Positions 49,082-52,100 of a stretch of DNA of 64,000 nucleotides are shown here, in pieces (position 1 is the first letter of the stretch; every line of letters starts with the position of its first letter). The stretch lies in NCBI RefSeq assembly GCF_002953195.1, contig NZ_CP026377.1, positions 992,001 to 1,056,000 on the forward strand, given 5' to 3'. The notes beneath the pieces are model-generated. The model ran no database searches and was not told where the DNA came from. It worked only from the letters and a program-made list of their open reading frames with translations. The DNA comes from Mixta gaviniae. Lineage in GTDB: Bacteria; Pseudomonadota; Gammaproteobacteria; Enterobacterales; Enterobacteriaceae. The translations under genes and the position numbers were made by a program.

Positions 49082-50284
49082 ATGAAGCAACTTACCATTC
49101 TCGGCTCCACCGGATCGATTGGCACTAATACGCTGGCGGTGGTGGCGGCCAATCCTCAGCAGTTCTCCGTTAAGGCGCTGGTCGCCGGATACAATGTCGA
49201 TCTGATGGTCGGGCAGTGCCTGCGTTTCCGCCCCGACTACGCCGCAATGGCCGATGAGGCTTCCGCGCGCCTGCTGCGCCAGCGGCTGCGTGAGGAAGGG
49301 GTGAAAACCGACGTCCTGTTCGGCGAAGAGGCTGCCTGCCAGCTGGCAGCGCTGGACGAGGTGGACCAGGTGATGGCGGCGATCGTCGGCGCGGCGGGTC
49401 TGTTGCCGACGCTGGCCGCCATTCGCGCCGGTAAAACGGTGCTGCTGGCGAATAAAGAATCCCTTGTCACGTGCGGCCGTTTATTTATGGAGGCGGTGAG
49501 CGCCAGCGGCGCGCGTCTGCTGCCCGTCGACAGCGAGCATAATGCCATTTTTCAGAGTTTACCGGCTTCCATCCAGCAACAGTTAGGATACGCTAACCTC
49601 CAGGAGAACGGCATTGAGTCGATCATCCTTACGGGATCTGGTGGACCGTTTCGTGACACGCCGCTCCCGGCGTTGGCTACCGTCACGCCGGAGCAGGCTT
49701 GCGCGCATCCGAACTGGTCGATGGGGCGTAAAATCTCCGTTGACTCCGCCACCATGATGAATAAAGGCCTGGAATACATTGAAGCCCGCTGGCTGTTTAA
49801 TGCAACCGATGCCCAGATGGAAGTGATCCTGCATCCGCAATCGGTGATTCACTCTATGGTGCGCTACCGCGACGGCAGCGTACTGGCGCAGCTGGGATCG
49901 CCGGATATGCGTACGCCGATCGCCCATACGATGGCCTGGCCGCAGCGGGTCGAAGCGGGCGCCACGCCGCTCGACTTTACCCGAATGAAGGCGTTAACCT
50001 TCGCCGAACCTGATTTTAACCGCTATCCCTGCCTGAAACTGGCGATGGATGCGTGCGAGCAGGGGCAGGCGGCGACCACCGCGCTGAATGCGGCCAATGA
50101 GATAGCGGTCGCCGCGTTTCTTAACGCGCAGATTCGCTTTACCGACATTGCCGCGCTCAATACCGCCGTTCTGGCATCGCTTCACTCTGCGGAACCACAA
50201 AGCGTGGACGCGGTGCTGGCGATCGATGCGGAGGCGCGACGGGCGGCGCAGGCGCTGTTACCGCGCTTCTCCGCGGCGGGTTAA
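49082..50284 (+). CDS. dxr: 1-deoxy-D-xylulose 5-phosphate reductoisomerase
   Basis: Second step of the MEP isoprenoid pathway: DXP to MEP with NADPH; target of fosmidomycin. 400 residues (E. coli 398). NADPH motif GSTGSIG at 8-14, metal/substrate region [12 protein letters not shown] (E near 150s) and [32 protein letters not shown]. Start [11 protein letters not shown] as E. coli. It precedes uppS, which uses the IPP this pathway makes, after a 188-base gap with a promoter and attenuator-like hairpin. Confidence 0.97.
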
Positions 50285-50472: not shown

Positions 50473-51224
50473 ATGTCGTCCGAAACTCAAATAACAACCG
50501 ATGACCAGCAGCGGATACGCCCGCGTCATGTGGCCATCATCATGGATGGCAACGGCCGCTGGGCGAAAAATCAGGGCAAACTTCGTGTCTCCGGTCATAA
50601 AGCGGGAGTGAAATCGGTGCGCCGCGCCGTAAGCTTTGCCGTCAGCAATAAACTGGAAGCACTCACGCTTTATGCCTTCAGTAGCGAGAACTGGTCCCGT
50701 CCGCCGCAGGAAGTGGTGGCGCTGATGGAGCTGTTTGTCTGGGCGCTCGATAGCGAAGTAAAAAGCCTGCATAAACACAATGTTCGCTTAAGAATTATTG
50801 GCGATATCAGCCGTTTTAATTCACGCTTACAGGAGCGCATTCGCCGCGCTGAGGAACTTACTCAACAAAATAATGGATTAACCCTCAACATTGCCGCGAA
50901 TTATGGCGGCCGTTGGGATATTATTCACGGCGTACGACAGATAGCCGAGCAGGTGCAGGAAGGGTTGCTCCGTCCTGACCAGATCGAGGAAACTACGCTG
51001 TCCGGATTTCTCTGTATGCATGATTTGGCACCGGTGGATCTGGTAATAAGGACCGGGGGGAGCATCGCATCAGTAACTTCCTGCTATGGCAAATCGCCTA
51101 CGCGGAGTTTTTCTTTACCGATGTTCTCTGGCCTGATTTTGACGAACAAGTTTTTGAAGGTGCAATGAATGCTTTCTCACATCGTGAGCGTCGATTTGGC
51201 GGCGCAGCACCTGGCGGCGCCTGA
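50473..51224 (+). CDS. uppS: Undecaprenyl diphosphate synthase, apparent -1 frameshift at G6 run
   Basis: Cis-prenyltransferase that makes the C55 lipid carrier for peptidoglycan and O-antigen; essential (ispU in E. coli). The first 196 residues match E. coli, with catalytic Asp in IIMDGNGRW and [10 protein letters not shown]. After LVIRTGG the reading frame departs at the G-run 51055-51060 and would stop at 51168 with 35 foreign residues (231 in all). Shifting back one base at 51060 restores [21 protein letters not shown] up to [13 protein letters not shown] and a stop at 51222-51224, total 250 residues (E. coli 253). The lost part holds the IPP/Mg residues (Arg and Ser of HRIS, Glu of AYAE). 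One G too few in the data, or real slippage, is likelier than a dead gene. Confidence 0.88.
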
Positions 51225-51242
51225 GCGCCCTGGGGGTAACCT

Positions 51243-52100
51243 TTGCTGAAGTCGCGTCTGATTACAGCGTTCATCCTGATCCCTCTGGTGATCGCTGCGC
51301 TTTTCTGGTTACCGCCCTCAGGGTTCGCCATTGCCACGCTTGTGGTATGTATGCTGGCCGCATGGGAGTGGGGCCAGCTTGCCGGCTTTACTTCCCGTCT
51401 TCAACGCATCTGGCTGGCCGTGCTGTGCGGCCTGCTGCTTGCCGTGATGCTCTTCACGCTTCCCCCTTACCAATATGCCGTGCAGCTGCCGCAGTTCAGC
51501 GGTTCGCTTTGGGCTGCGCTCGGCTGGTGGATTGTCGCGCTGCTGCTGGTGCTGACCTATCCCGGCTCCGCCAGCTTCTGGCGACAGTCGCGCGCGCTGC
51601 GCCTGCTGTTCGGCGTGCTGACTATCGTGCCGTTTTTCTTCGGTATGGTGGCGCTGCGTCAGTATCACTACAGCGCGGACCATTTCGCCGGCGCCTGGTG
51701 GCTGCTGTACGTCATGGTGCTGGTGTGGGGCGCCGACTCCGGGGCCTATATGTTTGGCCGTCTGTTCGGCAAGCATAAGCTGGCACCGAAGGTCTCGCCG
51801 GGTAAAACCTGGGAAGGCTTCTTCGGCGGACTGGTCACCGCCGCGCTGATCGCCTGGCTCTTCGGCCTGTGGGCGCCGCTGACGGTGGCGCCGGGCACTT
51901 TGCTGATCAGCTCGATTGTCGCCACGCTGGCTTCCGTGCTGGGCGATCTGACGGAAAGCATGTTCAAGCGCGAAGCGGGCATTAAGGATAGCGGACATCT
52001 GATCCCCGGCCACGGCGGCATTCTCGATCGCATCGATAGCCTGACCGCTGCGGTGCCGGTTTTCGCCTGTTTGCTGCTGCTGGTGTTCAGGACGCTGTAA
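51243..52100 (+). CDS. cdsA: Phosphatidate cytidylyltransferase (TTG start)
   Basis: Inner-membrane enzyme making CDP-diacylglycerol, the precursor of all phospholipids. 285 residues from TTG at 51243 (MLKSRLITAFILIP), same length and start codon as E. coli. About eight membrane segments. The CDP-DAG synthase signature near the C-terminus is complete (SMFKREAGIKDSGHLIPGHGG ILDRIDSL region, about 236-266). It starts 18 bases after the restored uppS stop, so uppS and cdsA are cotranscribed. Confidence 0.97.
   Translation: MLKSRLITAFILIPLVIAALFWLPPSGFAIATLVVCMLAAWEWGQLAGFTSRLQRIWLAVLCGLLLAVMLFTLPPYQYAVQLPQFSGSLWAALGWWIVALLLVLTYPGSASFWRQSRALRLLFGVLTIVPFFFGMVALRQYHYSADHFAGAWWLLYVMVLVWGADSGAYMFGRLFGKHKLAPKVSPGKTWEGFFGGLVTAALIAWLFGLWAPLTVAPGTLLISSIVATLASVLGDLTESMFKREAGIKDSGHLIPGHGGILDRIDSLTAAVPVFACLLLLVFRTL

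Follow-up and report, generated by a model that had tools for sequence, protein, structure and literature searches.

The window, that is, the whole 64,000-nucleotide stretch of DNA that was analysed, corresponds to bases 992001-1056000 of the chromosome of Mixta gaviniae DSM 22758T, a one-contig genome of 4,527,605 bp. It contains uppS, the gene for undecaprenyl diphosphate synthase (UppS), between an upstream open reading frame (ORF) that we take to be dxr and a downstream ORF that is presumably cdsA (Table 1). The genus was recognised from 20 kb of a genus-mate's second contig, which a search of a plasmid collection showed to be 100% identical to Mixta hanseatica NZ_CP082905.1. The genus set used for comparison consisted of eight Mixta genomes, namely M. 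gaviniae itself (G000), M. calida DSM 22759T (G002; 4,308,453 bp), M. hanseatica (G003) and five further Mixta genomes (G001, G004, G005, G006 and G007).

Table 1. Features of the uppS locus of M. gaviniae DSM 22758T (positions in the window)
Feature	Position	Strand	Remarks
Upstream neighbour, open 400-aa ORF	49082..50284	+	Presumably dxr
uppS ORF as deposited, 231 aa	50473..51168	+	UppS-like over residues 1 to about 197, thereafter out of frame
GGGGGG (G6) run, point of frame loss	51055..51060	+	One base shorter than the G7 of M. hanseatica (G003), G001 and G007
UppS remainder, -1 frame	51060..51224	+	Starts GAG CAT CGC; TGA at 51222-51224
Downstream neighbour, open 285-aa ORF	51243..52100	+	Presumably cdsA

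The initial annotation had located a one-base break of the uppS frame in a run of six G, and the deposited sequence confirms it. The run reads GGGGGG, and the translation of the ORF follows UppS as far as LVIRTGG, after which it is unrelated until the stop codon at 51166-51168 is reached. When base 51060 is read a second time, the UppS C-terminus is restored up to its TGA stop. In a profile search of the genome, the PF01255 match was broken into two adjoining pieces, covering model positions 1-173 and 172-219, which differ in frame; the second lies in this restored frame. TIGR00055 matched residues 17-197 of the deposited product with 254 bits, indicating that the N-terminal and central UppS sequence is present. 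All of the 16 NCBIfam matches to the 231-aa product stop at residues 196-199, and the score of NF007596 (358.1) is below its cut-off of 418. The conserved C-terminal EHRISNF region is absent from the main uppS frame and was found in the -1 frame, where the piece running from base 51060 to the stop is a 98% match to the UppS of M. hanseatica.

Alignment via the M. hanseatica orthologue placed the lost part opposite Escherichia coli UppS from E198 on, thus including E198, H199, R200, S202 and E213. We take these residues to have roles in the binding of isopentenyl diphosphate (IPP) and Mg and in catalysis. The intact M. hanseatica orthologue matches E. coli UppS (PDB 1jp3 and others) over residues 3-248 (E. 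coli 4-249, E = 1.1e-130), whereas the deposited M. gaviniae frame lacks everything past the RTGG motif. A second intact uppS would have changed the meaning of the break; none was found, nor any other cis-prenyltransferase, in a PF01255 search of the one-contig genome at E 0.001.

The gene is present in all eight Mixta genomes, to which the comparison of the run was confined, leaving aside 80 named relatives and E. coli matches (5374 of 5426 genomes). M. calida DSM 22759T carries the same G6 as M. gaviniae, which is a new finding, and none of the other six genomes does. At the place of the run, G001, G003 and G007 have G7, and G004, G005 and G006 have GGGGGAGAG (G5-A-G). The G count in relatives, which the initial annotation had proposed as a check, thus yielded an intact frame in all six, with the first stop at codon index 250, i.e. 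at full length. The annotation had also remarked on the two codons directly upstream of the run, ATA and AGG. Both are indeed rare, with frequencies of 2.5 (ATA) and 1.7 (AGG) per 1000 codons of the M. gaviniae ORFs surveyed. However, the pair is present in all eight Mixta genomes, six of which have intact frames, and is therefore not tied to the shift.

Both type strains were sequenced by the same laboratory and described in one paper, at that time as Pantoea calida and Pantoea gaviniae. According to this paper, both genomes were obtained with PacBio RS II, assembled using Canu in the 'pacbio-raw' mode and polished with CLC, at approximately 140-fold coverage for M. gaviniae and 300-fold for M. 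calida. Short reads are not mentioned in the paper, and by its methods both are long-read-only assemblies.

A gene-by-gene comparison was performed for one-base insertions and deletions (indels) in conserved ORFs, covering 0.8 Mb each of M. gaviniae and M. calida and, as controls, 0.78 Mb of M. hanseatica and 0.4 Mb of G001. To pass the main filter, an ORF had to be 150 aa or longer and intact in a third genome. The M. gaviniae ORFs tested numbered 391 with M. hanseatica queries, 362 with M. calida queries and 195 with G001 queries, and those of M. calida 395 with M. hanseatica, 362 with M. gaviniae and 205 with G001 queries. Under this filter, we identified 10 frame-breaking one-base deletions in M. 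gaviniae and 11 in M. calida, with no insertion in either genome. The control M. hanseatica yielded two one-base deletions, three one-base insertions (one of them at uppS, where the missing base of the two type strains shows up as an insertion), one two-base insertion and one eleven-base deletion, and G001 yielded one one-base deletion, two one-base insertions (one again uppS) and one eleven-base deletion.

Several of these deletions were judged by eye to lie upstream of likely true starts and were set aside (4 of the 10 in M. gaviniae and 2 of the 11 in M. calida), leaving six and nine, respectively. The genes concerned are presumably cra, mtnN, gloB and yajQ in M. gaviniae and cra and yajQ in M. 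calida. The indels upstream of cra and yajQ are at the same places in both genomes, and shared indels therefore do occur, though outside genes. All of the 15 remaining events are deletions, which departs from equal odds with a two-sided p of 6e-5 when the shared uppS site is counted twice. Real frameshifts are themselves thought to be deletion-biased, and we therefore also calculated the probability under deletion odds of 0.7 (0.7^15 = 0.005). With a laxer filter, M. gaviniae had 11 one-base deletions and two insertions, one of which was also found in M. calida, and M. calida had 15 one-base deletions, one one-base insertion and one two-base insertion; the corresponding numbers of deletions and insertions were 6 and 6 in M. 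hanseatica and 4 and 2 in G001. A coarser count of broken genes gave 3 of 192 in M. gaviniae, 11 of 197 in M. calida, none of 181 in M. hanseatica and 3 of 183 in G001. In-frame stop counts (17 in M. gaviniae, 22 in M. calida, 46 in M. hanseatica and 18 in G001) had been considered as a yardstick for pseudogenes. They seem to stem mostly from spurious ORFs and extended N-termini, being highest in M. hanseatica, and were therefore dropped with no inference in either direction.

The genes broken in M. gaviniae besides uppS, named by NCBIfam searches of their intact relatives, are clpP, lon, potG, an MFS transporter gene and mlrA (the last below cut-off). The breaks in clpP and lon, both one-base deletions, lie outside the window at approximately 1,283,700 and 1,286,570, i.e. 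3 kb apart, and both genes are intact in M. calida and M. hanseatica. For the nine remaining M. calida events, the intact relatives of four genes besides uppS were searched in the same way. Two of them were named as dnaE, with a one-base deletion at approximately 1,021,490, and mltD; one had no family at E 1e-50, and one had general c-di-GMP phosphodiesterase matches below cut-off. A genuine break in dnaE, which encodes the replicative polymerase, is not credible, and this deletion is almost surely an assembly error. It is hardly credible, either, that clpP and lon, only 3 kb apart, have both been genuinely lost. Both consensus sequences therefore drop bases.

Runs of seven G number only 7 in M. 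calida, compared with 15-26 in each of its seven genus-mates.

Relative to G6 runs, the M. calida assembly contains fewer G7 runs (7 to 140) than six other genomes taken together (132 to 1082, p = 0.02). None of its seven G7 runs touches a C, compared with 59 of 117 in G001, G003, G004, G005 and G006 (p = 0.014), G007 being left out of this comparison; the p value is that of a pattern that was seen first and tested afterwards. Against single genomes, the p values were 0.007 (G001), 0.009 (G004), 0.010 (G005), 0.07 (G003) and 0.14 (G006), and the pattern lends weak support to an error. The uppS run itself touches a C. Since the M. calida assembly is short of G7 and has none beside a C, an error in this genome is easy to believe. 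In M. gaviniae, there is no such shortage (24 G7 to 230 G6, p = 0.58 versus six others), 14 of the 24 G7 runs touch a C, and two G8 runs are present. G7 runs also lie inside long open frames, at least in L233, L236 and L249, and this assembly therefore does not always shorten G7. Universal shortening, which had been considered for M. gaviniae, is thus rejected. Among the G/C runs of seven in the G001 and G003 ORFs, uppS is the sole site with an indel in M. gaviniae or M. calida; the one other such run in each of the two sets is substituted or unaligned, and these are too few for an error rate.

The uppS sequences of M. gaviniae and M. calida differ at only 9 of 768 bases. When the region is divided into bins of 250 bases, the three bins that cover uppS are each 98.8% identical between the two genomes. 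Identity is 89-98% for the six bins lying upstream and 90-94% for the six lying downstream, compared with a genome-wide average identity of 88% given in the type-strain genome paper. This high likeness of approximately 99%, at about 50473-51240 in the window and at the M. calida counterpart, may reflect conservation or local recombination, and would also fit a real state shared by descent or recombination. The six differences upstream of the run are all silent. Of the three downstream, two are silent and one exchanges Phe and Tyr when read in the -1 frame, whereas all three alter the amino acid when read in the 0 frame; the -1 frame therefore appears to be used. This pattern shows purifying selection on the restored reading and speaks against a pseudogene, while fitting both an artefact and recoding.

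We consider it most likely, with a probability of roughly 0.9, that the break in uppS is an assembly error. In the living strain, uppS is very probably intact, one base of its long G run having been lost in the PacBio consensus. The run would likewise have lost a base in the sister genome, which the same laboratory produced in the same way. For M. gaviniae, this would be one of a few sporadic losses. A homopolymer error was also the explanation favoured by the initial annotation. It has gained support from the intact relatives, from the use of PacBio, from the one-sided bias to deletion in the two assemblies and from the sister genome of the same paper, which has the break as well. It is established that the frame is broken, which strains the two genomes represent, how they were sequenced and that one-base deletions predominate one-sidedly in both assemblies; that this particular uppS base is among those lost from the consensus is what we infer. 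Gene-fragmenting indel errors of this kind are known from long-read assemblies (PMC12007338). As in those cases, conserved genes are split here by one-base deletions, many of them at or beside short runs. The error profiles consulted are, however, those of nanopore (MinION) assemblies, whereas the present case concerns PacBio RS II and one site in two sister genomes. With approximately 140-fold coverage, it is not certain that a G7 would be misread.

Because the break is shared, the case is less trivial than the initial annotation supposed: the same base missing in two genomes would also be explained by a single inherited event, i.e. by a real G6. Under this explanation, which we regard as unlikely, M. 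gaviniae and M. calida inherited the G6, present in these two sister genomes and in no other Mixta genome of the set, and their ribosomes slip by -1 on GGG GGG to make the catalytic C-terminus. The shift might occur at perhaps a few percent, which would be enough because little UppS is needed. As judged from the sequence, full pairing is available to a P-site tRNA that moves back by one base from the second GGG, and a single slip of tRNA-Gly would give the full protein; the downstream differences, as read in the -1 frame, also fit. In principle such slippage is possible, because E. coli survives a one-base frameshift in the essential gene rpoB through approximately 5% spontaneous suppression (PMC7022156). 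As in uppS, a frameshift in an essential gene would there be tolerable via ribosome slippage; however, the rpoB case is a +1-nt mutation supported by genetic and proteomic experiments, whereas the base missing from the deposited uppS may well be present in the cell. Several observations argue against this explanation. The zero frame at the run is C GGG GGG and does not conform to the slippery heptamer X XXY YYZ. A Shine-Dalgarno-like TAAGGA ends 2 nt before the run, but it is found in all eight Mixta genomes and therefore represents no special adaptation. A predicted fold at 51061-51130 has a z of -2.03 (7 of 200 shuffles as good), but the counterpart in the intact frame of M. hanseatica, one base on, is about as strong, with a z of -1.63, and a segment starting 3 nt later and 10 nt longer (51064-51143) gave a weak -0.36. 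In this comparison with one genus-mate, no shift-specific downstream stimulatory structure was found. Moreover, a G run reverts easily, and selection should therefore restore the frame. Both assemblies also have unrelated one-base deletions. Among the papers listed in literature searches on ribosomal frameshifting and transcriptional slippage, recoding of uppS is described in no title or abstract opening.

Even less probable, in our view, is a genuinely variable run length, within the population or among mRNAs, through slippage of replication or of RNA polymerase, so that a minority of templates encodes the full protein. In some bacteria, G runs are of variable length; the site concerned is such a run, and it is a G7 in three relatives. 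However, a run of six or seven G is a short one for slippage in replication or transcription, and an essential housekeeping gene is unlikely to serve as a switch. Among works on undecaprenyl and transcriptional slippage, no title or abstract opening was found to concern uppS. A true null, in which another or a split enzyme takes over, had already been called implausible and has the smallest probability of all. Its sole support is the reading of the deposited sequence itself. Against it stand the lack of a second cis-prenyltransferase match noted above, the alignment of the lost part with the E. coli residues E198 to E213, and the conservation of this part in the -1 frame, which has no start codon near its beginning.

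As an artefact, the break matters mainly to users of the two type-strain genomes. One-base breaks in conserved genes of these genomes are probably spurious, and loss of gene function should therefore not be read from either of them. When the genomes of two species were made with shared methods, loss of one and the same base from both can mimic inheritance. If the G6 were real, it would represent an unusual case, in two species, of an essential enzyme made by frameshifting.

In a wider sample of 246 genomes of the family, a UppS match was found in 226, and 223 of these contain one single match, which makes a split uppS unusual and favours an error in the two Mixta genomes. The 20 genomes with no uppS match are all 300-600 kb in size and are perhaps those of insect symbionts in which the wall pathway has been lost or the copy has diverged. 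Judging by the number of matches per genome, uppS is split in three of the 226, namely M. gaviniae, M. calida and G035. The G035 genome (5.1 Mb, one contig, 49% completeness) carries uppS in three pieces (G035:C1:4203031-4203742). The low completeness together with the three UppS pieces suggests that this is probably an error-rich, poor assembly.
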